From Mesorhizobium sp. M9A.F.Ca.ET.002.03.1.2 (GTDB taxonomy: Bacteria > Pseudomonadota > Alphaproteobacteria > Rhizobiales > Rhizobiaceae), in NCBI RefSeq assembly GCF_003952365.1, contig NZ_CP034443.1:3031001-3095000 (forward strand): 64,000 bases of DNA, in the 5' to 3' direction. The translations under genes were made by a program, and so were the position numbers. Below the pieces are notes generated by a model that was given only the letters and a program-made list of their open reading frames with translations, did no database searches and was not told the origin of the DNA. Of the stretch, positions 5,786-17,722 are shown piece by piece (positions within the stretch are counted from its first letter, which is position 1; each line of letters begins with the position of its first letter).

Positions 5786-6490
5786 TCAGCTCTTCTCCGC
5801 GCGTCCCTGCGCAAGCAGGAACAGGCGATGCGGTTCGACGATAGTCACTTTCTGGCGGCCGCTCTTGACCAGCCCCTTGTCTTCCCAGGAAGTGAGCAGA
5901 CGGCTGACCGTATGAAGCGTCGTGCCGGTCATCTCCGCGATGTCCTGGCGTGAGATCGGAAAGTCGATGAGAATGCCTTCATCCGTGGTCTTTCCGGTCT
6001 GCTTGACGAGACGTAGCAACGCATGGGCAACGCGCTGTTCCACCTGCTCGGTAGCCATCTCGACGACCCGGCTGTGCGTGTCGTTAAGCCTGGTCCCCAC
6101 CGTCTTGTAGGTGTTGGCGCCAAAATTTGGGAAAGCGGTTGCGAATTCCGACCAGAGGTTGCCCGGCCAGGCCAGCACCACGCAATCGACCGCTGCGATC
6201 GCGCTCGCCGGATAGGTGGATCGGCCCAATGCCTGGGCGATGCCCATCAATTCCCCCGGACTGATGTAGCGCACTATGACCTGCTGACCGTCCGGTGTCG
6301 TCTTCACCACGCGGACATGCCCTGCGATCAAGAGGAAGAAGGACTGGGCTTCGCCCTCTTGCTCGAAAACCGCCTCGTCCTTCGTTATCCGCAACGAACG
6401 GGCCCTCTGAAGGATGCGATCGAGATCCGCCGGAGCCACGCCCTGGAATGGAGACAGCCCAGCAATCAGCGAGCGGTCGAGGCGGCTCAC
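5786..6490 (-). CDS. Crp/Fnr family regulator, NnrR/DNR-like
   Basis: Transcription factor of 234 residues. An N-terminal cyclic-nucleotide-type beta-roll (about 20-120: FEQEGEAQSFFLLIAGHVRVV) is followed by a dimerisation helix and a C-terminal helix-turn-helix (PISRQDIAEMTGTTLHTVSRLLTSWEDKG, about 170-200). The N-terminal cysteine cluster of FNR is absent, which favours a DNR/NnrR nitric-oxide sensor or other non-FeS member. The GTG start at 6490 is chosen because a textbook AAGGAGG lies seven bases before it; upstream ATGs lack such a site. Context (hemN remnant, DUF1858, ApbE remnant, TTGCG-N4-CGCAA site) supports NnrR. Confidence 0.8.
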   Translation of the reverse strand: MSRLDRSLIAGLSPFQGVAPADLDRILQRARSLRITKDEAVFEQEGEAQSFFLLIAGHVRVVKTTPDGQQVIVRYISPGELMGIAQALGRSTYPASAIAAVDCVVLAWPGNLWSEFATAFPNFGANTYKTVGTRLNDTHSRVVEMATEQVEQRVAHALLRLVKQTGKTTDEGILIDFPISRQDIAEMTGTTLHTVSRLLTSWEDKGLVKSGRQKVTIVEPHRLFLLAQGRAEKS

Positions 6491-6576
6491 GATGACTCCT
6501 CCTTCCATCGGGTGGAACTCAAAAGACTCGATGCGCGAATGCATCGCCACAATGTCACATGCGACCGAACGGCGAC

Positions 6577-6600
6577 AAGCCGCCACCAGTGCGGCTTTTT
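6577..6600 (+). terminator. Possible intrinsic terminator hairpin
   Basis: AAGCCGC and GCGGCTT pair perfectly around a seven-base loop and are followed by a T run on the plus strand. No intact plus-strand gene ends just upstream, so it may be a leftover of a lost gene or a hairpin in the leader of the Crp/Fnr gene read on the minus strand. Confidence 0.3.
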
Positions 6601-6696
6601 CACGCCCTTCGGTTGTGCGAGTACGATCGGACGCGTGCCCCATGCCGGCATCGCGCGAGCTAAGCCGGTCCGGATCGACATGCATAAAACAAGAAC

Positions 6697-7360
6697 TTAA
6701 AACGCGTTGTCCGGCAGCGCAAAGTGGTCGAGGCCGATTTGCCGGTAACCGGCTGCAACCAGCGTTTCGGCGATGGCCGATGCCTGCTCGCTGCGCTGTC
6801 TGACAAGGCGGCTTCGTCGATCATCCGCTGATGCTTCTTGAACGTCGGGACGGGCATAGCCGAAGACAGCGAGCCGATCCGGTTTCATTGCAACCGCTGC
6901 TGTCGCGGTATCCACACAGGACTGCGCGGTCTGGTGCGGGAGGCCGTAGATCAGATCGAAATTGATGCGGGCGACCCCATGGTGCCGCAGATTGTCGACG
7001 GCTTCGGCTGCCTGCCCCTCGCTTTGGATGCGGTTGACGGCCTTCTGCACCACCGGATCGAAGCTCTGCACGCCAAGACTTGCCCTGCCGACGCCGGCGG
7101 CGCCCAAGGCCTCGGCCATATCGGCCGTGAGCGTGCGGGGATCGATCTCGATGGCGATCGAAGCCGCTGCGGTGAACTCGAAGCGCTGGCGCAGGAGTTC
7201 CATCAGCGAGGCGAACTCCGCCGGCTCGATGATCGTTGGCGTGCCTCCGCCAAAATGGACCTCGCGGACCTGCAATCCTTTCGGTGCGCGGTCCGCGACG
7301 ATGCGGATTTCCTCTCGCAGCGCGTCTAGATAATCGAGGATCGGCTGGTCCTTCCTCGGA
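6697..7360 (-). pseudogene. hemN-like coproporphyrinogen dehydrogenase, broken
   Basis: The middle of a radical-SAM HemN protein is recognisable: REVHFGGGTPTII, IEIDPRTLTADM, RASLGVQSFDPVVQKAVNRIQS, NFDLIYGLPHQTAQS and IGLDHFALP. The N-terminus with the CxxxCxxC iron-sulfur motif is missing upstream of about 7360, and the C-terminus stops right after FALPDNAF. Near 6850 the frame shifts (after FGYA the family sequence FKKHQRMIDEAALSDS is in another frame) and shifts back near 6800. Two frameshifts plus both ends lost make it non-functional. Oxygen-independent haem synthesis genes of this kind are often NnrR/FnrN targets. Confidence 0.8.
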
Positions 7361-7895
7361 TGCCGGCGCCAACGACGCTGGGCGTACGAGGCCGGAACGC
7401 CCCAGGGCGTTGTGTCGATCGTTCGAGGAAGGGGGTGCGCGCGTGCGCCTTGATTTGCTGCCCGAGGGGCCCAAGCGCTCAGGGAACGACGGAATGCATA
7501 GCTGCACTCAGCGCAATCTTCGGGAAGCAGCGACTGGGAACGATACTTTCGTTCCTTCGGGGTGGCGCCCCGTTTACTGGACTTGATGACGACGCCGACG
7601 CATGTTTGGCCGCCCAAATGCGGATAGCCGGCCGGGTAAAAATTGTAACGAAATTTGCCGAAGCGACCCGAAATCCAAGAGCTACGAGGCGCTCGCGTGG
7701 ATGCGCATACATTCGGGTACATTTCGATCGTACTCGGGCAAATCCCTGCGACAGGCGTGGCGTAAGTTTCAATCGTGAGCATGAAGCCTCGTCAAGGTGG
7801 CGAGACAGAAAGCCGACAGCGGTTTCGCAAGCGGGAGTCAATACCGCCCGAGGCGCCGGTTGGCGGGTCTGCTCATTCCAAGAAAGGAAAATACG
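7361..7895. other. Gene-free stretch of about 530 bases
   Basis: Both strands contain open frames, but none shows a known motif, codon pattern or ribosome binding site that would support a gene. The 5' part should have held the lost N-terminus of hemN, so a rearrangement breakpoint lies at about 7360. Confidence 0.45.
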
Positions 7896-8266: not shown

Positions 8267-8722
8267 CTACCGCGTGATGGCACCTTCCAGATAGACGATA
8301 ATCGCTGCGCGCTGGGCGGCATTGGGAACGCCCACTGTCATCGACGTGCCCGGCACTGCCTGTCGCGGTGCCGTGAGAAAGGCATCAAGGGTGCCGCTCT
8401 CCCAGACTATGCCCGACTCCCGCAACGCCGCCGAATAGCGGCCACCCTCCACGCTGGCGGCCGTGCGGCCGATGACGCCCGACAGATGCGGGCCGACCCT
8501 GTTCTGGCCGGGCTCCAGGCTGTGGCAGGTGCCGCAGCGCTGCCGGAACAGCCGTTCCCCGTTTACCTGCTGCGCGGAAGCGGCGGCGGGCAACAGCAGG
8601 CAGGCGGCGGCCAAAAGCCTAGCCAGGAACACACGCGCTCGCGTGACAGACGTCGCCAGGGGTGCGGCCGCAACTCCGGCGGAAATGATGTGGCTGCCTG
8701 TCGTGGCTTGCGAACGGTTCAT
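8267..8722 (-). CDS. Class I cytochrome c, exported
   Basis: Periplasmic mono-haem cytochrome c of 151 residues. A hydrophobic signal segment (ARLLAAACLLLPAAASAQ) is followed by GERLFRQRCGTCHSLEPGQNRVGPHLSGVIGR: the CGTCH haem site plus the cytochrome c2-type GPxLxG segment; the axial methionine is probably in PGTSMTVGV. It should accept or deliver electrons in the periplasm. It lies just downstream of the histidine kinase gene on the same strand (about 200 bases gap) and opposite the Mo-hydroxylase/Sox operon, so it may be the soluble electron carrier of that system. The start at MNRSQA is uncertain. Confidence 0.85.
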   Translation of the reverse strand: MNRSQATTGSHIISAGVAAAPLATSVTRARVFLARLLAAACLLLPAAASAQQVNGERLFRQRCGTCHSLEPGQNRVGPHLSGVIGRTAASVEGGRYSAALRESGIVWESGTLDAFLTAPRQAVPGTSMTVGVPNAAQRAAIIVYLEGAITR

Positions 8723-8922
8723 CGGATGATCTCTGCGGAAGGTTGGGGGGAGGGCTTTGCTGGTGGCCGGAAGCTCCGGGCAAGACCAGCCGCTCACCAG
8801 CGAGAGCGGCTGCCGGGCTAAGGAAGGTGCTGGGAGGATGCGGGTGGCGACTTGTCCTTCGTTGCCACGGCGATGATCGAACGGTGGCGTGGCAGCGCGT
8901 GAGCTCCGATCGCGGGTTTCGG

Positions 8923-10404
8923 TCAAACCGGCAAGGATCGCAGTCCGGTCGGAGGGTTCGTCTCAGGCACAGGCGCCGGGGCAACCTGCTTGGCCATGTC
9001 GATCAGCGGCAGCTTGATGACCGCGCGAAGGCCCTTGCTCCGGTTCTCGAGCACGATGTCGCCGCCGTGGTGGCGGGCGATGGCGCGGGCAATTGACAGG
9101 CCGAGCCCGACGCCGCCGGTCTCCCGGTTGCGCGACTGCTCCAGGCGGAAGAAGGGGGCGAACACCTGTTCCATATCGCCTGCCGGAATGCCGGATCCGG
9201 CGTCCTCGATCACGATGTCCAAGCTGTCGGCGCTCCTGACCAGGCTTACCTTGGCCTGCTCGCCGTAGCGGACGGCATTTTCGACGAGGTTGCGTATCGC
9301 CCGGCGCAGCGAGTCCGGGCGGCAGCGGTACAGCACCTTGGGCCCGTCGCTGACGGTGACGTTTTGGCCCAGCTCCGCGAGATCGTCGCAGAGGCTGCCG
9401 ATCAGCGCCGAAAGATCGACGGTCCGCGTTTCTTCCACCGCGGCGTCCTCGCGCGCGAAGGCGAGCGCCGCTTCCGTCATCGTCTGGATTTCCTCTATGG
9501 TCTTCAGCATCTTTTCCTGGAGATCGTGATCCTGGACGAACTCCGCGCGCAGCCGCAGCGAGGTCAGCGGCGTGCGCAGGTCGTGGCTGATCGCCGCCAG
9601 CATGCGCGTGCGGTCCTCGACGAAGCGCTGCAGGCGCTCCTGCATGCGGTTGAATGCTTCGGCGGTCTGACGGATGTCGTCCGGCCCTGATTCCGGCAGC
9701 CGCGGCACGGCCTCGCCGCGGCCGAACAGTTCAGCGGCATTGGCGAGGCGTCGCAGCGGACGCGCGATGGCCCGCGCCCCGAAAATCGCTATGGCAGACA
9801 GGATAAGTGCGGTGAGCGCCAAGGATATCGCCGATTGCGTCGTCCAGAAGGCGTTCGGCATCGCCTTGGCGTAGGCGGCGTTCAGCCAGGTGCTATCGTC
9901 GAGGCGGACGGAAAGGCCCATGCCGTTTGGAGCGCCGTCCATGTAAAGAAACTTGGCCGGCCGTGAGAAGGGCCTGCCGTTGCCGGACAAATCCAGCATG
10001 CGCGGCGGCACGGAAGGGTCGGCGGCATCGACTGCGCTCGAAGCCTGTCCGTTCATATAGGCGGCATACTTGCCGGCAATCCCGGGCAGCGGCTTGGCGA
10101 GCTGGGTCAGGGCTTCCTGTTGCCAGGCGAGGGGATTGCTCGGTCCGTCGTCGGAGGTCCAGAAGCGCGTATAGGCCGTGCCGCTGACATTGAGGATGTC
10201 GGGCCGAAGCGAGGGCGGCGTCGTGTCCAGCAGAAGGGCAAGGGAGGACGTGCGGCTGACGAACTCGCCCTTGGCCGCCGCGTGCAGGGCCTGTCCGCGC
10301 TCGTCCCATGAGATCAGGAAGGTGATCGCCTGCGACAGGGCGAGCGCAAGCAGCACCAGCATGAGGAAGCGGGCCGCCAGGCTGCGTCTCCACAACAGCA
10401 TCAT
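8923..10404 (-). CDS. Sensor histidine kinase, EnvZ/RstB-like
   Basis: Membrane sensor kinase of 493 residues: transmembrane helices at about 10-30 and 190-210 with a 160-residue periplasmic sensor part, HAMP linker, HisKA domain with the phospho-acceptor His274 (SHDLRTPLTSL) and HATPase with N-box Asn376 (NLVENAVRYG), DAGSGIP and GLGLSI boxes. The start codon overlaps the stop of the response regulator (ATGA), so the pair is coupled. It is divergent from the iorAB-fcc-sox operon and most likely controls it. The sensed ligand is unknown; a reduced sulfur or aromatic/aldehyde compound would fit the neighbourhood. Confidence 0.9.
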   Translation of the reverse strand: MMLLWRRSLAARFLMLVLLALALSQAITFLISWDERGQALHAAAKGEFVSRTSSLALLLDTTPPSLRPDILNVSGTAYTRFWTSDDGPSNPLAWQQEALTQLAKPLPGIAGKYAAYMNGQASSAVDAADPSVPPRMLDLSGNGRPFSRPAKFLYMDGAPNGMGLSVRLDDSTWLNAAYAKAMPNAFWTTQSAISLALTALILSAIAIFGARAIARPLRRLANAAELFGRGEAVPRLPESGPDDIRQTAEAFNRMQERLQRFVEDRTRMLAAISHDLRTPLTSLRLRAEFVQDHDLQEKMLKTIEEIQTMTEAALAFAREDAAVEETRTVDLSALIGSLCDDLAELGQNVTVSDGPKVLYRCRPDSLRRAIRNLVENAVRYGEQAKVSLVRSADSLDIVIEDAGSGIPAGDMEQVFAPFFRLEQSRNRETGGVGLGLSIARAIARHHGGDIVLENRSKGLRAVIKLPLIDMAKQVAPAPVPETNPPTGLRSLPV

Positions 10405-11120
10405 GCCGGGGCCACCTCGGCGGTGAAGCAGTAGCCGCCGCCCCAGTGCGTCTTGATCAGCATCGGACTTTTCGGGTCCGCCTCGATCTTCTTGCGCAGC
10501 CGGCTCACCTGGTTGTCGACGGCCCGGTCGAAAGCGTCGGCGGTGCGCCCGACCGTGAGGTCGAGCAGTTGATCCCGGCTGAGCACGATCCCGACATGCT
10601 CGATGAAGGCGGTGAGAAGGCGGAATTCAGCCGTGCTGAGCGCGACCGCCACGCCGTCGAGCCCGACCAGCTCGCGGCGGCCGACATTCAGCGTCCAGCG
10701 GTCGAACCGCAGCGCGTTCGACTTGAGACGACCGCGCTGCGGCGGCAGGTTGTGGACGCGCCTGAGCACGGCCTTGATCCGCGCCAGCAATTCCCGCGGA
10801 TTGAACGGCTTGGTCAGGTAATCATCGGCCCCGATCTCGAGGCCTACGATCCGGTCGATCTCCTCGGCCATGGCGGTAAGGAAGATGATCGGAATGTCGA
10901 CCGTCCCGCGCACGTGCCGGCAGGCGGCAATGCCGTCCTCGCCAGGCATCATGATGTCGAGGACGATGAGATCGGGCAGGCTGCGGTCGAGCAGCCGCTT
11001 GAGCGCGGCCGTGCTGTCGGCAACGCTGACGCGATAACCCTGCTGGGTGAGATATTTCCCCACGAGATCGCGGATGTCCCTGTGGTCGTCCACGACCGCG
11101 ATGTGCTGCGCCGCTTCCAT
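10401..11120 (-). CDS. OmpR-family response regulator
   Basis: Two-domain DNA-binding response regulator of about 239 residues. Receiver domain with the acidic pair in VVDDH, phospho-acceptor Asp in LIVLDIMMPGEDG (about residue 55), conserved Thr (FLTA) and Lys (YLTKPFNPREL); then an OmpR/PhoB winged helix ending VSRLRKKIEADPKSPMLIKTHWGGGY. It is cotranscribed with the kinase at 8923-10404 and faces the sulfur/Mo-hydroxylase operon across a 320-base region with a 10-bp tandem repeat (11242-11261), the kind of target OmpR-type regulators use. An ATG four codons upstream (11132) is also possible. Confidence 0.9.
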   Translation of the reverse strand: MEAAQHIAVVDDHRDIRDLVGKYLTQQGYRVSVADSTAALKRLLDRSLPDLIVLDIMMPGEDGIAACRHVRGTVDIPIIFLTAMAEEIDRIVGLEIGADDYLTKPFNPRELLARIKAVLRRVHNLPPQRGRLKSNALRFDRWTLNVGRRELVGLDGVAVALSTAEFRLLTAFIEHVGIVLSRDQLLDLTVGRTADAFDRAVDNQVSRLRKKIEADPKSPMLIKTHWGGGYCFTAEVAPA

Positions 11121-11241
11121 GCAATGCTCCAAAGCCGCCGCCAGATAGTCGGCCAGTATCGACGATATCTAGTTTGCGTCTACACGGATGATCACCTTCC
11201 GCACCATGGCGGCAATCTCGCGCGGGATCAACAAAGCGTGA

Positions 11242-11261
11242 GAAGTGTAACGAAGTGTATC
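11242..11261. promoter_or_regulatory. Tandem 10-bp repeat, candidate response-regulator site
   Basis: GAAGTGTAAC is immediately repeated as GAAGTGTATC. Head-to-tail repeats of 10-11 bases in an intergenic region between a divergent OmpR-type regulator and its suspected target operon are the classic layout for binding of two regulator protomers. Confidence 0.45.
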
Positions 11262-11440: not shown

Positions 11441-11911
11441 ATGGCCAGACTAACCATCAACGGCGCGCCACGTGATATCGAGGTCGATCCGGACACGCCG
11501 CTGCTGTGGGTGATCCGCGAGCAGATCGGGCTTACCGGGACGAAGTACGGCTGCGGGGTTGCTGCCTGCGGCGCCTGTACCGTCCATATAGACGGCGTCG
11601 CCACGCGCTCCTGCGTGCTTCCGGTGAGCGCGGTCGAGCCGAACCAGCAAATCACCACGATCGAGGGGCTTTCGCCGGACAGTTCGCATCCGGTCCAGCA
11701 GGCGTGGCTGGCGCTCGATGTGCCGCAATGCGGCTACTGCCAGGCCGGCATGATCATGGCTGCGGCGGGTCTGCTCATGCAGAACCCGAACCCCACGGAC
11801 GAGGACATCAACGCCGAGATCACCAATATCTGCCGCTGCGGCACATATAACCGGGTGCGCGCCGCGATCAAGCTGGCCGCCAATAACGGCGAAGCCACGC
11901 AGCCCGGTTGA
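11441..11911 (+). CDS. (2Fe-2S) subunit of a Mo hydroxylase, IorA-like
   Basis: Small subunit of a xanthine-oxidase-family hydroxylase, 156 residues. It has the plant-type ferredoxin cluster in the N-terminal half ([17 protein letters not shown]...RSC) and the second cluster in the C-terminal half (CGYCQAGM...ICRCGTY). The fused two-domain layout is that of isoquinoline 1-oxidoreductase alpha (IorA) and related aldehyde dehydrogenases. GAAAGGA lies nine bases before the ATG. It is the first gene of a plus-strand operon with its catalytic subunit, a flavocytochrome pair and SoxXYZA. It passes electrons from the molybdenum site to a cytochrome. Substrate is unknown. Confidence 0.88.
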
Positions 11912-11922
11912 GGAGAACAATC

Positions 11923-14097
11923 ATGAACGCCATAATTTCCATCTCCCGCCGCAGCTTCATCGTCGGCGTGGCCTCCACGGCCGGCGGCCTGTCGCTAGGC
12001 TTCAACCTGCCGTTCATCAAGGCGGCACTTGCCGAGGGCGCCGAGACGGCGCCCGAAATCAATGCCTGGGTGGTGATCAGGCCCGACGACACGGTGGTCA
12101 TCCGCATCGCCCGCTCCGAGATGGGGCAGGGGACGCTGACCGGCCTGGCGCAACTCGTCGCCGAGGAGTTGAATTGCGATTGGTCCAAGGTCACGACCGA
12201 ATATCCGTCGCCGACCCAGAACCTCGCGCGCGATCGCGTGTGGGGCAACTTCTCGACGGGGGGCAGCCGCGGCATCCGCGAGTCGCACGAATATGTGCGC
12301 ATTGGTGGCGCCGTCGCGCGCGAGATGCTGATCGCCGCCGCGGCCGCCGAATGGGGTGTGCCGGCCGGCGAATGCACCGCTAGGATGGGCATGGTCACCC
12401 ATGCAGCATCGGATCGCGCCACCTTTTATGGACAGTTGGCCGCTGCTGCCGCGCGGATGACGCCGCCCGCCAAAGTTACGCTGAAGGACCCGAAGGACTG
12501 GACCATAGCCGGCAAGCCGCTGCCGCGGCTCGACACCGCCGACAAGCTCAACGGCAGCCAGGTTTATGGCGTCGACCTCAAGCTGCCGAACATGCTCAAC
12601 GCGGCCATCCGGGCCTGCCCGTATTTCGGCGGCAAGGTGGAGAGCTTCGACGCCGCGGCGGTGGCCGACATGCCCGGCGTGCGCACCGTCGTTCAGGTCG
12701 ACGAGACCGCCGTTGCGGTTGTCGCCGATACGTGGTGGCGGGCGAAGACCGCTCTCGATGCCTTGCCGGTCGTCTGGGACGAAGGTCCCAACAGGCAGGT
12801 CACCAGCGCCTCGATCGCGGCGATGCTCGACGAGGGCCTCGGTGCAAATGACGCCTTCATCGGCGCCGAGCAGGGCGATGCCGCTTCTGCCCTGTCAGCC
12901 GCCGGCCGGACGATCACGGCGACCTACGCCTTCCCCTATCAGAACCACGCGACCATGGAGCCGATGAACGCGACGGCGCTCTACACGCCGGAGCGCTGCG
13001 AGGTGTGGGTGCCGACCCAGAATGGCGAAGCGAGCCTTGCGGCGGCGGCCGAGGCCGCCGGCCTGCCGGTGCAGCAATGCGAGGTGCACAAGATCCATCT
13101 CGGCGGCGGCTTCGGCCGGCGCGGCAACTTCCAGGACTATGTGCGTCAGGCGGTCAGCATTGCCAAGCAGGTGCCGGGAGCGCCCGTAAAGCTCATCTGG
13201 TCGCGCGAGGAGGACATGCTGCACGGCGCCTACCACCCGACCACGCGATGCCGGCTGACGGGCGCGCTCGACGCGGACGGCAACCTGACCGCTCTGCATA
13301 TGCGCATTTCCGGCCAGTCGATCCTTGCGGCGGTACGGCCGGAAGGCATGCAGAACGGCATGGACCCGGTCGTCTTCCAGGGCCTCGTCCTCAGCGGCGC
13401 GGAAGGCACGCTGGGCTATACGGTGGACAATCTGCTTGTCGACCATGCCATGCGCAACCCGCCGATCCCACCAGGGTTCTGGCGTGGCGTGAACCTCAAC
13501 CAGAACGCGCTCTACGTCGAGTGTTTCATGGACGAACTCGCCCATGCGGCCGGCGTCGACCCGCTCGCCTTCCGACGCAAGCTGATGGCCAACCATCCCA
13601 AGCACCTCGCCGTGCTGGAGGCGGTTGCCGAACGGATCGGCTGGGATACCCCGCCCGCGGCCGACGTTCACCGCGGCCTGGCGCAGATCATGGGCTTCGG
13701 CAGTTATGTGGCGGCGGCAGCGGAGGTATCGGTCACCGACGGGCAGCTCAGGATCCACCGCATCGTGGCGGCCACCGATCCGGGTCATGTCGTCAACCCC
13801 GCGCAAGTGGAGCGGCAGGTCGAAGGCTCTTTCGTCTACGGCCTTTCCGCCTGCATCTACGGCGAATGCACCGTCGATGGCGGCCGCATGGAGCAGGAGA
13901 ATTTCGACAGCTACGAGGTCGTGCGCATGGCCGACATGCCGGAGGTGGAGACGATCATATTGCCGTCCGGCGGCTTCTGGGGCGGCGTCGGCGAGCCGAC
14001 CATCGCGGTTGCAGCACCCGCCGTACTCAATGCGATCTTCGCCGCCACCGGAAAGCGCATCCGCATGCTGCCGCTGAAGAACCATGACCTCGCCTGA
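11923..14097 (+). CDS. Molybdopterin subunit of Mo hydroxylase, IorB-like
   Basis: Catalytic subunit of 724 residues, xanthine-oxidase family, IorB type with an N-terminal Tat signal (SRRSFIVGVAS), so the enzyme is probably exported folded, carrying the small subunit along. Molybdopterin-binding motifs include EMGQGTLTGL, GGGFGRRG, FWRGVNLNQN and, near the C-terminus, GGVGEPTIAVAAPA, which holds the catalytic Glu. GAGGAG precedes the ATG. Unlike cytoplasmic three-subunit hydroxylases there is no FAD subunit; electrons likely go to c-type cytochromes, several of which are encoded next to it. The substrate could be an aldehyde or N-heterocycle; the link with sulfur genes is unusual. Confidence 0.85.
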   Translation: MNAIISISRRSFIVGVASTAGGLSLGFNLPFIKAALAEGAETAPEINAWVVIRPDDTVVIRIARSEMGQGTLTGLAQLVAEELNCDWSKVTTEYPSPTQNLARDRVWGNFSTGGSRGIRESHEYVRIGGAVAREMLIAAAAAEWGVPAGECTARMGMVTHAASDRATFYGQLAAAAARMTPPAKVTLKDPKDWTIAGKPLPRLDTADKLNGSQVYGVDLKLPNMLNAAIRACPYFGGKVESFDAAAVADMPGVRTVVQVDETAVAVVADTWWRAKTALDALPVVWDEGPNRQVTSASIAAMLDEGLGANDAFIGAEQGDAASALSAAGRTITATYAFPYQNHATMEPMNATALYTPERCEVWVPTQNGEASLAAAAEAAGLPVQQCEVHKIHLGGGFGRRGNFQDYVRQAVSIAKQVPGAPVKLIWSREEDMLHGAYHPTTRCRLTGALDADGNLTALHMRISGQSILAAVRPEGMQNGMDPVVFQGLVLSGAEGTLGYTVDNLLVDHAMRNPPIPPGFWRGVNLNQNALYVECFMDELAHAAGVDPLAFRRKLMANHPKHLAVLEAVAERIGWDTPPAADVHRGLAQIMGFGSYVAAAAEVSVTDGQLRIHRIVAATDPGHVVNPAQVERQVEGSFVYGLSACIYGECTVDGGRMEQENFDSYEVVRMADMPEVETIILPSGGFWGGVGEPTIAVAAPAVLNAIFAATGKRIRMLPLKNHDLA

Positions 14098-14446
14098 CAT
14101 GAGACGCTCGAAGGACGGGCGCGGCGGACGATCGCTCGCGCCCGTCCTGCTTGCGGCGCCTGTCCTGCTTGCGGCGCTCGTGGCCAGCGCGCCGGCATGG
14201 GCCGACGCGGCGCCCGGTGCCACGGCGTGCACCGGCTGTCACGGGCCGGCGGCGCTCGGCTCAGCCATCCCCTCGCTCGACGGCCACGCGGCGGCCGACA
14301 TCGTCGCCCAGATGCAAGCCTTCCGTTCCGGCGAGCGCGAGGCGACGGTCATGGACCGCATCGCCAGGGGATTTACCGAGGAGGAGACGCGCGCCATCGC
14401 CGAATGGCTCGCCAAGCCGGAGGCGGCACGCCATGCCCAGCCGTAG
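14084..14446 (+). CDS. Mono-haem cytochrome c, FccA/SoxE-like
   Basis: Exported cytochrome c of about 120 residues: signal peptide (LAPVLLAAPVLLAALVASAPAWA), haem site CTGCH, IPSLDGHAAADIVAQMQAFRSGER and a distal methionine region (TVMDRIARGFTEEE). This is the single-domain cytochrome found with flavocytochrome c sulfide dehydrogenase; classical FccA is often di-haem, so this is the short form. It overlaps the end of the Mo-hydroxylase gene and its own end overlaps fccB by 14 bases, indicating tight coupling. An alternative start is the ATG at 14099. It should take electrons from the flavoprotein. Confidence 0.8.
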   Translation: MTSPDMRRSKDGRGGRSLAPVLLAAPVLLAALVASAPAWADAAPGATACTGCHGPAALGSAIPSLDGHAAADIVAQMQAFRSGEREATVMDRIARGFTEEETRAIAEWLAKPEAARHAQP

Positions 14447-15698
14447 AACCTTGATCGGCGGCGCGGCGGCCAGCGTCGCCGCAGCCGTCCTTGCCGCGCC
14501 GCAGGTGCGCGCGCAGGCGCAGCCCCGCGTGGTCGTGGTCGGCGGCGGCTTTGCCGGGGCAAGCTGCGCCCGCGCACTGAAGCAGCTGGATCGTGGCCTT
14601 GCCGTGACGCTGATCGAGCCGGAGACAGCCTATCTGGCCTGCCCGTTCAGCAATGCCGTGCTTGCAGGGCTGCGCGGCATCGAGGCGCAGACCTTCGGCT
14701 ATGGCCGGTTCGGCGACATCGGGCTCATCCGCAGGCGCGCTGCCGCCGTCGATGCCGAGCGCCGGCGCGTCCGGCTGGAGGATGGTACCGAGATCGGCTA
14801 CACCCGGCTGGTGCTGGCGCCCGGCGTCGACCTGCGCTTCGATGCGCTGCCGGGCTACGACCAAGCGGCGGCGGAGATCATGCCGCATGCCTGGAAGGCG
14901 GGGCCGCAGACGCTGCTGCTGCGCGACCAGCTCGCCGCGATGCCGGACGGTGGGGTCGTCATCCTCGCCGCGCCAGCCAATCCGTTCCGCTGCCCGCCCG
15001 GTCCATACGAGCGGGCAAGCCTGATCGCGCATTACCTCAAGACCAGCAAGCCGCGCTCGAAGCTGATCATCCTCGACGCCAAGGACGCCTTTTCGAAGCA
15101 GCGGCTGTTCGAAGCCGCCTGGCGAGAGCTCTATCCCGGCCTGATCGAATGGGTGCCGCTGTCCTCGGGCGGCAGGGTGACGGAAGTCGACCCGGCGACA
15201 ACGACGCTGGTGACCGAGTTCGGCAGCCACAAGGCCGATGTCGCCAACGTGATCCCGCCGCAGCGCGCGGGCAGGATCGCGCAGGCGGCCGGCGTCGCCG
15301 ATCAGACGGGCTGGTGCCCGATCGACCCGGTCACCTTCGAGTCCCGTCTGCAGCCGGCCATCCACGTCGTCGGCGACGCGGCGATCGGCGGAGCGATGCC
15401 GAAATCCGCCTTCAGTGCCAACGCCCAGGCAAAAGCCTGCGCCGCAGCGGTCGCCGCGCTGGTCAGGGGGCGGCAGCCAGCGCCGCCGAAGCTCATCAAC
15501 ACCTGTTACAGTCTGGTCGCGCCCGGCTACGGCATCTCGATCGCAGGCGTCTACCAGCCGCGCGACGGCCTGCTTGCCGAGGTGGAGGGTGCAGGCGGCA
15601 CCAGCCCGCTTGAAGCGCCGCCCTCCGTCCGCGAACTGGAAGCCGCCTATGCGCAGGACTGGTTCCGGACGATCACCAGTGAGGTGTTCGGAGTATGA
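14433..15698 (+). CDS. fccB: Flavocytochrome c sulfide dehydrogenase, flavoprotein subunit
   Basis: Periplasmic FAD protein of 421 residues (FccB; called SoxF in sox clusters). Twin-arginine-like leader (MPSRRTLIGGAAASVAAA), Rossmann motif VVVVGGGFAGASCAR, and the family cysteines: AYLACPFSNAVLAG (FAD-linked Cys region), PFRCPPGPYERAS and NTCYSLVAPGYG, the latter two corresponding to the redox-active disulfide of the Chromatium enzyme. It oxidises sulfide or a SoxYZ-bound sulfur species and feeds electrons to the preceding cytochrome. SoxF has been linked to reactivation of SoxYZ, which fits the downstream soxXYZA genes. Confidence 0.87.
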   Translation: MPSRRTLIGGAAASVAAAVLAAPQVRAQAQPRVVVVGGGFAGASCARALKQLDRGLAVTLIEPETAYLACPFSNAVLAGLRGIEAQTFGYGRFGDIGLIRRRAAAVDAERRRVRLEDGTEIGYTRLVLAPGVDLRFDALPGYDQAAAEIMPHAWKAGPQTLLLRDQLAAMPDGGVVILAAPANPFRCPPGPYERASLIAHYLKTSKPRSKLIILDAKDAFSKQRLFEAAWRELYPGLIEWVPLSSGGRVTEVDPATTTLVTEFGSHKADVANVIPPQRAGRIAQAAGVADQTGWCPIDPVTFESRLQPAIHVVGDAAIGGAMPKSAFSANAQAKACAAAVAALVRGRQPAPPKLINTCYSLVAPGYGISIAGVYQPRDGLLAEVEGAGGTSPLEAPPSVRELEAAYAQDWFRTITSEVFGV

Positions 15699-16144
15699 GG
15701 ATGGCCTGCCCCGCTCTTGCGGGATTGCTGCTTGCGGTCTCGCCCGGCGTTGGCGAGGAGGCGGGTTCCTATGCCGTGACCGGCGACGCGATCATGGAGC
15801 CTCTGGCCGCCGGCAAGGGTGATCCGGAGCGCGGCGCCGCGCTGATCTCGGACCGGCAGCGCAGTCTCTGCACGCTCTGCCATAGCGGACCGTTTCCCGA
15901 TGCGCATCTGCATGGCACGCTGGCGCCCGACCTGACCGGCGTCGGGGCAAGGCTTTCGGAAGGCCAGATCCGGCTGCGCGTGGTCGACATGAAGCGGCTC
16001 GTATCGAATACGATCATGCCTTCCTACTACCGGGTCGCGGATGAGGACGGCCGGCGCGTCGCCGCCGTCTGGCGCGGCAAGCCGATCCTGACCGGCGCCG
16101 ATATCGAGGACATCGTCGCCTATCTCACGACGCTGAAGGGGTGA
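15695..16144 (+). CDS. soxX: SoxX cytochrome c
   Basis: Mono-haem cytochrome subunit of the SoxXA complex, 149 residues including signal peptide. Features: DPERGAALISDRQRSLCTLCHSGPFPDAHLHGTLAPDLTGVG with the CTLCH haem site, and the axial methionine region SNTIMPSYYRV. SoxXA forms the thiol-sulfur bond between thiosulfate and SoxY. The start overlaps the fccB stop (ATGA) and its stop lies two bases before the soxY ATG, so the operon is translationally coupled. Confidence 0.88.
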   Translation: MRMACPALAGLLLAVSPGVGEEAGSYAVTGDAIMEPLAAGKGDPERGAALISDRQRSLCTLCHSGPFPDAHLHGTLAPDLTGVGARLSEGQIRLRVVDMKRLVSNTIMPSYYRVADEDGRRVAAVWRGKPILTGADIEDIVAYLTTLKG

Positions 16145-16146
16145 TT

Positions 16147-16623
16147 ATGCGCGAAGACCCGCTTCACGAAGGCTTGGTTGGACGGCGGCAGTTTCTTCGG
16201 GCCGGCATGACCGGCCTGCTGGTGATCAGCCTGCCACGCTGGGCTCTTGCCCGTCCGAGCCTCGAGGAGGCGATCCGGACCTTCACCGGAGGAGTCGAAA
16301 TTCTCGACGGCCGCGTCCGGCTCGACCTGCCGCCTCTGGTCGAGAACGGCAATGCGGTCGGGATCACGGTCGCCGCCGAGAGCCCGATGACCGCGGACGA
16401 TCATGTCCGGCGCATCGCGGTCTTCAACGAGAAGAACCCGGAGGCGAATGTCGCGGTTTTCCATCTCGGGCCGCGTTCGGGCCGCGCCACCGTCTCGACG
16501 CGGATCCGGCTCGCCACCTCGCAGGTGGTGGTCGCCGTCGCGGAGATGTCAGACGGCAGCTTCTGGTCGAGCAGGGCGAGCGCGATCGTCACGCTTGCCG
16601 CCTGCATAGAGGACCTGTCATGA
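16147..16623 (+). CDS. soxY: SoxY sulfur carrier with atypical C-terminus
   Basis: Carrier subunit of SoxYZ, 158 residues, with Tat-type leader (GRRQFLRAGMTGLLV) and SoxY core (GITVAAESPMTADDHVRRIAVFNEKNP, VSTRIRLATSQVVVAVAEMSDG). The usual SoxY ends in GGCGG, whose Cys carries the sulfur intermediate on a swinging arm. Here the end reads VTLAACIEDLS: the cysteine is kept six residues from the end but its glycines are replaced. This would alter arm flexibility or partner choice. The ATG at 16147 is preferred over GTG at 16141 because of AAGGGG upstream. It overlaps soxZ by ATGA. Confidence 0.88.
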   Translation: MREDPLHEGLVGRRQFLRAGMTGLLVISLPRWALARPSLEEAIRTFTGGVEILDGRVRLDLPPLVENGNAVGITVAAESPMTADDHVRRIAVFNEKNPEANVAVFHLGPRSGRATVSTRIRLATSQVVVAVAEMSDGSFWSSRASAIVTLAACIEDLS

Positions 16624-16943
16624 CGACGCGTGCGCTGATCAATGTGCCGAAAGCGGTCAAGCGGGGCGAGGTCGTCGAGATCAAGGCGATGATCGGGCAT
16701 CCGATGGAAACCGGCTATCGTGTCGGCCCGAACGGCTCCAACATCCCTCGCGACATCATCCGCCGTTTCGCCTGCACCTATGACGGCGAGGAGGTGTTTT
16801 GGGCCGATCTTTTTCCGGCAGTGTCGGCCAATCCCTTCTTCGCCTTCACGCTCGTCGCCACGACGAGTGGCACGATCGAGTTCGCCTGGACGGACGGCGC
16901 CGGAAAGACGCAAACCGCGTCGGCCGAAATCACGGTGAGCTGA
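16620..16943 (+). CDS. soxZ: SoxZ carrier partner
   Basis: SoxZ, 107 residues, an immunoglobulin-like beta-sandwich protein that pairs with SoxY. Motifs: RALINVPKAVKRGEVVEIKAMIGHPMETGYR, PRDIIRRFACTYDGEEVFWADLFPAVSANPFFAF, and TDGAGKTQTASAEITVS at the end, all at full family length. No signal peptide is visible, as expected since SoxZ is co-exported with SoxY. Start overlaps soxY stop; stop overlaps the soxA ATG (TGATG). Confidence 0.93.
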   Translation: MTTRALINVPKAVKRGEVVEIKAMIGHPMETGYRVGPNGSNIPRDIIRRFACTYDGEEVFWADLFPAVSANPFFAFTLVATTSGTIEFAWTDGAGKTQTASAEITVS

Positions 16944-17722
16944 TGCGCGCCCTCTGGGGCCTGGCAGGGATCATCGCGGCATTTGTCTGCGGCATGGCCA
17001 TCGCTGCCGGCATCGAAGACGGCGAGAAGCGCTCGGGCTTCGACTTCATGACACCGCAGACGCAGGCGCTGCAGGCCGACGACATGAGCAATCCCGGCAT
17101 GCTGTGGGTGCTGCAGGGCGAGCAGCTCTGGCAACAGGCGCAAGGCAGGGCGGATCTCGCCTGCTCCGGCTGCCATGACGATGCCTCCCGGACGATGCGC
17201 GGCGTTGCCACGCGCTACCCGGCCTTTGACGAGATGACGGGACGGCCGATCGACCTTGCCGGGCGCATCAACTCTTGCCGCGCGGAGCGGCAGCAGGCTG
17301 AGCCGCTGGCGCCGGAGTCCGATGCGTTGCTCGCCCTGACGGCCTATGTGACGCATCAGTCGCGCGGCATGCCGATCACACCGGCGACCGACGCCCGGCT
17401 CGCGCCGTTCCGTGACAACGGCCGGCGTCTGTTCCAGAGCCGCATCGGCCAGCTCGACCTCTCCTGTGCCTCCTGCCACGACAACAATTGGGGCAAGCGG
17501 CTCGGCGGCAGCGTCATCCCGCAGGCGCATCCGACCGGCTATCCGCTCTACCGGCTGGAGTGGCAGACGGTCGGCTCGCTGCAGCGGCGCCTGCGCAACT
17601 GCATGATCGGGGTGAGAGCCGAGCCCTTCGCCTTCGGTGCGCCCGAACTCGTCGAGCTGGAACTCTACCTCATGGAACAGGCCAAGGGCCTGCCGATCGA
17701 GACGCCGGCCGTGCGGCCGTGA
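16943..17722 (+). CDS. soxA: SoxA di-haem cytochrome c
   Basis: SoxA, 259 residues, periplasmic, partner of SoxX. Signal peptide (LWGLAGIIAAFVCGMAIAAG), first haem site CSGCH (74-78), second haem site CASCH (175-179), and RLRNCMIG with Cys220, the cysteine that carries a persulfide and ligates the active-site haem. Both haem sites are intact, so this is the di-haem form. It is the last gene of the operon. Neither soxB (thiol hydrolase) nor soxCD follows; the next genes are on the other strand and unrelated. Confidence 0.9.
   Translation: MRALWGLAGIIAAFVCGMAIAAGIEDGEKRSGFDFMTPQTQALQADDMSNPGMLWVLQGEQLWQQAQGRADLACSGCHDDASRTMRGVATRYPAFDEMTGRPIDLAGRINSCRAERQQAEPLAPESDALLALTAYVTHQSRGMPITPATDARLAPFRDNGRRLFQSRIGQLDLSCASCHDNNWGKRLGGSVIPQAHPTGYPLYRLEWQTVGSLQRRLRNCMIGVRAEPFAFGAPELVELELYLMEQAKGLPIETPAVRP

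Follow-up and report, generated by a model that had tools for sequence, protein, structure and literature searches.

The window analysed here, a stretch of 64,000 nucleotides from Mesorhizobium sp. M9A.F.Ca.ET.002.03.1.2, carries at positions 11441-17722 eight co-directed genes, which encode a molybdenum hydroxylase (iorA, iorB), a c-type cytochrome, the flavoprotein of a flavocytochrome c sulfide dehydrogenase (FCSD; fccB/soxF) and the Sox proteins SoxX, SoxY, SoxZ and SoxA. A preliminary description of this DNA had claimed such an operon, and all eight genes were found at the place and on the strand it gave, and neighbouring genes either overlapped or were no more than 11 bp apart. The iorA gene ended at 11911 and the ATG of iorB lay at 11923. 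The overlaps were 14 bp for both iorB/cytC and cytC/fccB, 4 bp for fccB/soxX and soxY/soxZ, and 1 bp for soxZ/soxA. Between soxX and soxY there was a gap of 2 bp when soxY was started at the ATG at 16147; the alternative GTG at 16141 would overlap soxX. The genes of the operon are as follows.

11441-11911, plus strand: iorA-type [2Fe-2S] subunit (Fer2, Fer2_2)
11923-14097, plus strand: iorB-type large subunit of a molybdenum hydroxylase, xanthine oxidase family (MoCoBD_1/2); ATG start, TTG at 11908 possible
14084-14446, plus strand: c-type cytochrome, SoxE/FccA-like, one CxxCH
14433-15698, plus strand: fccB/soxF, FCSD flavoprotein, with C70, C187 and C358
15695-16144, plus strand: soxX, monohaem cytochrome c (TIGR04485; 1h31_B)
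16147-16623, plus strand: soxY of the AACIE-arm type (TIGR04487); arm VTLAACIEDLS, Cys codon at 16603-16605
16620-16943, plus strand: soxZ (TIGR04490)
16943-17722, plus strand: soxA, two CxxCH motifs and active-site Cys220 (TIGR04484; 1h31 alignment)

Scored against the curated NCBIfam models, SoxX reached 65 bits with TIGR04485 (cut-off 61), SoxZ 92 bits with TIGR04490 (cut-off 76) and SoxA 227.7 bits with TIGR04484 (cut-off 110). SoxY stayed under the cut-off of the true-SoxY model TIGR04488 (98.7 vs 125 bits) and exceeded that of a paralogue model, TIGR04487, named 'SoxY-related AACIE arm protein' (213.5 vs 172 bits). SoxXA had both the active-site cysteine and the haem motifs of the Sox thiosulfate system. 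FccB contained the FCSD Pfam domains PF21706 (168 bits) and PF09242 (90.6 bits) and matched the FCSD flavoprotein 5n1t over nearly its full length (497 bits). Its C70, C187 and C358 appear opposite cysteines of 5n1t in the alignment, and we take them to have flavin and redox cysteine roles; the cytochrome and FccB together are presumably like the soxEF products of canonical Sox. IorAB had the make-up of a two-subunit molybdenum hydroxylase, with Fer2/Fer2_2 in the small subunit, MoCoBD_1/2 in the large one, and a glutamate, Glu691 of IorB, which we assume from knowledge of the family to be the catalytic one. The closest solved relative of IorB was 8gy3_C, the large subunit of an aldehyde dehydrogenase (258 bits), and a motif resembling a twin-arginine signal, SRRSF, was seen in IorB by eye. 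In the scan of the window proteins neither Ior subunit exceeded any NCBIfam cut-off.

The preliminary description had also stated that SoxB and SoxCD were lacking, and had proposed a whole-genome search. The host genome is one contig of 6,415,165 bases with a completeness score of 100%, and in it neither SoxB (best 111 bits, cut-off 550) nor SoxC (best 147 bits, cut-off 420) was found over cut-off, so that the statement held genome-wide for SoxB and SoxC; SoxD was not searched for. Weak matches of the same kind occurred in control genomes as well, in 10 of 14 for the SoxB model and in 7 of 14 for the SoxC model. FccB (PF21706) was present once in the genome, inside the operon. SoxY-domain matches numbered two, the operon soxY and a 324-aa frame at C1:6159610-6159936 (within L144), and the latter may be a fused SoxYZ carrier of the kind found with pyrroloquinoline quinone (PQQ) dehydrogenases. 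Among 99 genomes of the host genus, close IorB (94-100% identity) was present in eight and SoxB in one, which was none of those eight. Within the genus the operon is thus an accessory trait, and its carriers there have no SoxB.

Gene order was compared in 80 named loci, the best of 265 genome-contig relatives ranked by SoxY-alignment similarity; a set chosen by SoxY similarity cannot alone show that an AACIE-type SoxY always adjoins IorB. The loci came from genera including Mesorhizobium, Phyllobacterium, Chelatococcus, Ancylobacter, Xanthobacter, Bosea, Azospirillum, Inquilinus, Methylobacterium, Roseomonas and Geminicoccus, and also Luteimonas, Steroidobacter and Polaromonas. IorB lay upstream of soxX with all core genes on the same strand in 73 of the 80: 60 loci had all eight genes in the order of the window, in two no small cytochrome was detected, and 11 lacked FccB. 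The other seven comprised six loci cut by a contig end (L066, L072, L093, L099, L105 and L115) and one split locus (L094). The linkage of iorAB to soxXYZA, whose conservation in relatives the preliminary description had left to be checked, was thus kept, and it extended to the last three genera named above. In the split genome (L094/L263, Methylobacterium sp. WSM2598), SoxXYZA stood alone and IorA-IorB-cytC-FccB was found elsewhere on that 7.5-Mb contig, where the 9.7 kb past the FccB of this block contained no Sox gene; in one genome of the class sample described below, G091, IorAB and FccB-SoxXYZA were on different contigs. The separated halves were both retained in these two genomes, which supports the module as a joint unit. 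One locus titled Mycobacterium sp. KBS0706 (L084) had the operon with an IorB 80% identical to that of the window and resembled the Inquilinus loci; the name may be wrong.

The flanking open reading frames of the 80 loci were clustered, and the 40 largest clusters, built on naive frame calls with antisense frames included, were inspected. A conserved transporter or catabolic gene hinting at the substrate was not borne out, and the only wide partners were a two-component system and a cytochrome. In six Roseomonas-like loci (L101-L103, L112, L113, L120), most had a GntR regulator, an amidase and a nitrate/sulfonate-type ATP-binding cassette (ABC) transporter upstream of iorAB, and five had a TSUP-type permease downstream, all named by eye. 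This neighbourhood hints at a possible imported or exported compound of sulfur and nitrogen; it cannot name the substrate, because it is confined to those loci.

A class sample of 385 genomes was surveyed for the same genes. The TIGR04487 cut-off was exceeded in 21 genomes, and IorB of at least 60% identity was present in at least 31, a lower bound as two candidates per genome were scored and G011, with an IorB of 52%, was missed. SoxB was present in 38 genomes, namely in 5 of the 31 IorB carriers (16%) and in 33 of the 354 others; among carriers with completeness of at least 90 it was found in 3 of 25, and 22 of 25 had none. In the five carriers SoxB adjoined a GGCGG SoxY and never IorB. The two lay 3 Mb from IorB in G361, and in the drafts G044, G122, G127 and G292 they were on a different contig. 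Sox genes lay within 6 kb of IorB on the same strand in 24 of the 31 carriers. In three more, IorB was at a contig edge with the Sox genes on another contig (G071, G093, G147), and four were unlinked (G091, G127, G292, G370), each with an Ala-Cys-arm SoxY elsewhere in the genome. A truncated thiosulfate Sox system whose soxB fell into an assembly gap was ruled out by the complete one-contig host genome together with the 22 of 25 carriers without SoxB.

A tree was built by a 'quick' method, and has several long branches, from the IorB proteins of the class survey and their neighbours. In this tree a clade of 35 of the 71 rows, with a Shimodaira-Hasegawa-like approximate likelihood-ratio support of 99, held 29 of the 31 Sox-linked rows. 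The two linked rows among the 36 outside were a tandem IorB pair from a single locus, L141. Six rows inside the clade were unlinked: L136 and L140 lay at contig ends, L128, L130 and L132 formed a small subclade, and L126 was the split G091. Distant IorB proteins beside SoxXYZ (L242, L245-L247; 30-33% identity) stood outside the tree. A second, distant IorAB (37-39%) occurred at L141 (2357-13431), with its two IorB in tandem, and at L240 (1080-9086), accompanied by a C-terminally extended Ala-Cys-arm SoxY, SoxZ, FccAB, SoxX and SoxA; L240 also had a protein that by eye resembles the formylglycine-generating-enzyme family.

The carrier arm was classified in 87 SoxY proteins from the examined loci of the class sample, with duplicate loci (L145/L201, L149/L205, L129/L239) counted once; further, mostly weaker, matches to the SoxY model lay outside this set. 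All 37 SoxY next to SoxB ended in GGCGG. All 31 next to a same-strand IorB carried [AGPS]AC, and 28 of these had E or D two residues past the cysteine. The SoxY near a distant IorB on the opposite strand had GACGG arms (3 of 3). Sixteen SoxY were near neither SoxB nor IorB: nine had GGC-type arms, including a GGCGG from a genome with SoxB farther off, four were GACS, and three were xAC-x-E/D, from genomes with IorB on another contig. The 80 named loci, selected as they were, all had an xAC-type arm. In the loci examined the arm of SoxY followed the partner gene, and this rule provides a sequence test that separates SoxB-type from IorB-type Sox sets. Ala-Cys by itself was dropped as a diagnostic, since GACS and GACGG arms exist elsewhere.

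About 100 Ala-Cys-type rows were compared with 24-38 SoxB-partnered rows for positions that differ consistently. SoxY had eight, four of them in the arm (L150, A151, A152 and E155). SoxA had seven, three of them (Y200, E206 and G223) on either side of the active C220 in sequence; SoxX had two and SoxZ one. The SoxY arm and its loading enzyme may have changed together.

Other arm types were also seen. The loci L248-L251 had a GACS-arm SoxY with neither SoxB nor IorB nearby, L249-L251 with SoxX and SoxA and L250-L251 with FccB as well, and their genomes were not among the 38 with SoxB; they are perhaps a further SoxB-free Sox variant. At L245-L247 a GACGG-arm SoxY, an intermediate arm type, adjoined SoxX and SoxZ, and the distant IorAB (32-33%) was divergent.

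Residue conservation was checked in 60-79 rows per gene. The CxxCH motifs, C220 and R225 of SoxA were kept, as were CxxCH and M108 of SoxX, C187 and C358 of FccB and E691 of IorB; C70 of FccB was present in 98% of rows, and the eight cysteines of IorA in 99-100% of 71 rows. The ratio of nonsynonymous to synonymous substitution rates (dN/dS) was 0.06-0.43 in 32 comparisons of the eight genes with four relatives, indicating purifying selection. IorB had the lowest values (0.06-0.13), and the Sox and cytochrome genes had 0.13-0.43. As judged from their sequences, the operon genes look like working genes, and the gene set is not a chance one, because its order recurs in many genera and its genes are under purifying selection.

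Upstream of the operon lie the following features, all within the window.

11243-11259, plus strand: candidate operator, direct repeat AAGTGTA-N3-AAGTGTA with a 10-bp period
10401-11132, minus strand: OmpR-type response regulator, transcribed away from the operon; ATG start near 11120
8923-10404, minus strand: EnvZ-like sensor histidine kinase (HAMP, HisKA, HATPase)
8267-8926, minus strand: c-type cytochrome cytC2 (PF00034), a possible electron acceptor

The two-component system facing the operon was as the preliminary description had it. A match to the response regulator was present in 43 and to the kinase in 42 of the 80 named loci, in several orientations; a cytC2-like cytochrome was present in 28, a weak linkage as such cytochromes are common. 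The 17-bp repeat at 11243-11259 had no other match in the window at up to two mismatches. All 17 Mesorhizobium-type sequences (the window, L045-L059 and L095) had it, 187-201 bp upstream of the iorA match. Allowing up to three mismatches, it was found in 20 of the 72 sequences examined, these 17 and three others, and was absent from 52, with matches in 4 of 400 random pieces as control. In the Mesorhizobium-type lineage the repeat is a good candidate for the sequence that the response regulator would bind, and the operon may be controlled by the divergent system. Farther upstream, a HemN-type radical SAM-like frame (6697-7782, by eye) had an N-terminus that was odd and may be out of frame, and adjoined a Crp/Fnr-type regulator (5786-6685).

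The preliminary description had proposed a Sox variant with its own substrate and regulation. Neither of the findings that it had named as refuting, a complete soxB-CD set under the same regulator elsewhere and a lack of iorAB conservation beside soxXYZA in relatives, turned up. What stands of this is a variant free of SoxB and SoxC that has IorAB as its fixed partner and is faced by a two-component system; its regulation stays at the level of a prediction. The altered SoxY arm, absent from that description, strengthens the idea of a different job. The SoxXA loading site is intact, the arm has kept its thiol without GGCGG, the molybdenum hydroxylase is a constant partner and FccAB is optional; the simplest account is that SoxYZ now serves IorAB instead of SoxB/SoxCD. 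We propose, with a probability of roughly 0.4, that the operon encodes a SoxB-independent periplasmic Sox module dedicated to the molybdenum hydroxylase and working in the following cycle. SoxXA would oxidatively couple a reduced sulfur species (in the likeliest case an organosulfur compound such as a thiol, otherwise sulfide) to the cysteine of the SoxYZ arm, which would have been rebuilt from GGCGG to xAC-x-E/D. IorAB, as an exported enzyme of the xanthine oxidase family, would then oxidise the carrier-bound adduct or an organic fragment freed from it. FccAB, absent in some lineages, would clear the sulfane sulfur left on SoxY, the electrons would pass to c-type cytochromes, and the divergent two-component system would control the operon through the repeat at 11243-11259. 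The order of these steps, the class of substrate, export to the periplasm, the direct contact between SoxYZ and IorAB and the operator are what we infer. A thiol or organosulfur substrate is favoured because it best explains a hydroxylase together with sulfur proteins. The very low expression reported for a comparable second sox cluster of Starkeya novella on glucose, methanol and thiosulfate (in the available part of PMC3797975) fits another substrate. With SoxB missing, a molybdenum enzyme in the same operon and an altered carrier arm, many bacteria probably run a periplasmic oxidation other than ordinary thiosulfate oxidation.

Several points weigh against this reading. We know of no xanthine-oxidase-family enzyme that acts on protein-bound sulfur adducts. 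Three genomes (G127, G292, G370) have an IorAB of the Sox clade without an adjoining Sox gene. Three of the 31 IorB-linked arms have no acidic residue (GACIV, AACVI, GACAY), among the 31 IorB neighbours that of L242 has an identity of only 30%, and the Ala-Cys arm also occurs in the four GACS SoxY, which have no SoxB or IorB in their surroundings. What speaks most clearly against a strict carrier model is the one-contig genome G066, one of the linked carriers of the class sample. It keeps IorAB-soxX-soxA (L125, 7849-12200), but this locus has no soxYZ, and the SoxY model gave no match in the genome; perhaps the module can do without the carrier, or the G066 copy is in decay.

A more specific form of the proposal is a third use of the Sox machinery, in which the reshaped SoxYZ arm presents a sulfur-linked substrate to the molybdenum hydroxylase for C-H hydroxylation of protein-tethered periplasmic organosulfur compounds. 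We regard this as possible, if doubtful. If IorAB does act on SoxYZ-bound compounds, oxidation of a protein-tethered substrate would to our knowledge be new for molybdenum hydroxylases.

The best surviving rival, which we hold to be rather unlikely, is an inorganic route. SoxXA and SoxYZ would load sulfide or sulfane sulfur, IorAB would replace SoxCD as a molybdenum sulfur dehydrogenase, FccAB would feed or drain sulfane sulfur, and electrons would be gained from sulfide or polysulfide. FccB, the sole FCSD of the genome, keeps the FCSD cysteines, the active-site residues of SoxXA are intact, and one molybdenum enzyme is present where another, SoxC, is missing. IorB, however, belongs to the xanthine oxidase family, with an aldehyde dehydrogenase as its closest solved relative, and this family is not known to us for the oxidation of sulfur atoms. 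FccB is moreover missing from the 11 named loci mentioned above with IorB before soxX, and expression of the S. novella cluster was very weak with thiosulfate too, sulfide being unmentioned in the available part of that paper (PMC3797975).

Clearly less probable is a role in maintenance or protection, in which SoxYZ with SoxXA and FccAB would serve the molybdenum enzyme, for instance as a source of sulfur for restoring its terminal Mo=S ligand in the periplasm or by removing sulfur adducts, and IorAB would oxidise an ordinary carbon substrate. That IorB is the most constrained gene of the operon agrees with this, and fused SoxYZ carriers adjoin PQQ dehydrogenases, a setting in which maturation or protection roles have been proposed in the accessible sections of PMC12997753 and PMC11237559. 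But outside the Sox clade no IorB row of the tree except the two of L141 adjoins Sox genes, though the enzymes are homologous, and IorAB persists in G066 without a SoxY match.

A carrier of aldehydes or one-carbon units, whose SoxY thiol would trap an aldehyde as a hemithioacetal for oxidation by IorAB with no sulfur oxidised, is improbable: the solved relative of IorB and the recurrence of SoxYZ-like carriers beside alcohol dehydrogenases (in the portions available of PMC11237559 and PMC12997753) speak for it, but it leaves the conserved SoxXA active site and FccAB unexplained. A rarely used, functionless remnant, which the S. novella paper raised for its own species and which the undetected SoxAX and SoxYZ there, the very low transcripts (PMC3797975, available part) and the close IorB in only 8 of 99 genus genomes would suit, is very improbable in view of the purifying selection, the intact catalytic residues, the retention of the module across many families, and the detection of one S. 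novella SoxF-like subunit at a low level except on glucose.

Sox genes are commonly taken as markers of thiosulfate oxidation, and this operon would score as 'partial Sox' in genomes mostly without SoxB. A 2024 survey of SoxY removed sequences without the GGC motif as of poor quality, according to the part of PMC11237559 available, a filter that would drop the AACIE-arm family. The module is amenable to testing by single deletions.

Compared with the canonical Paracoccus-type Sox system, the window SoxX, SoxA and SoxZ are alike in exceeding the curated cut-offs; the differences are the lack of SoxB and SoxC and a SoxY that fails the true-SoxY model and has the arm AACIEDLS instead of GGCGG. 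This SoxY is a member of TIGR04487 by curated cut-off, and the NCBIfam entry as displayed names the family and gives neither partner nor function. The hydroxylase has two subunits and a cytochrome c, with no subunit binding flavin adenine dinucleotide in the operon, as in IorAB-, AldFGH- and nicotinate-dehydrogenase-type enzymes, names that we use here as types for comparison. The molecule names of the solved relatives of IorB mention no Sox partner, and PMC3570799 mentions neither sox nor xanthine.

The SoxYZ-like carrier associated with quinoprotein dehydrogenases (TIGR04557; SoxYZ-S2/S4 in PMC11237559) likewise links a carrier of the SoxYZ type to a carbon dehydrogenase. That carrier, however, is a single fused protein next to SoxH and a rhodanese (PMC12997753), whereas the window SoxY and SoxZ are two proteins, accompanied by SoxXA; they scored 56 and 43 bits with TIGR04557, under its cut-off of 140. 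For divergent SoxY of other kinds, the SoxY survey considers roles connected with organosulfur compounds and with carbon (PMC11237559). These comparisons draw on the available parts of the papers cited.

The cluster and the name of the SoxY family are already published; the arm-partner rule was not found in the open-access literature searched, nor was a paper there giving the operon a function. The earlier printed descriptions of the cluster date from 2013 for S. novella and 2018 for Telmatospirillum and are given here from the available parts of PMC3797975 and PMC5786683. In S. novella the second cluster, soxX2Y2Z2A2F2 (Snov_1982-1977) with the xanthine-oxidase-family genes Snov_1975/1976, contains neither SoxB nor SoxCD; SoxAX and SoxYZ escaped proteomics, and its authors considered it either without functional significance in the species or active under other conditions (PMC3797975). 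We liken it to the window operon by this description, in whose available part the SoxY arm and wide conservation go unmentioned. S. novella has in addition a complete soxB-containing cluster, unlike the host genome here, which has neither SoxB nor SoxC over cut-off. In Telmatospirillum siberiense a partial soxEFXYZA, syntenic with that of S. novella and with other sox genes absent from the draft, was described as partial thiosulfate machinery, the molybdenum enzyme not being named in the part available (PMC5786683). The T. siberiense locus in our set (L114) reads IorA-IorB-cytC-FccB-SoxXYZA, as does the operon of the window.

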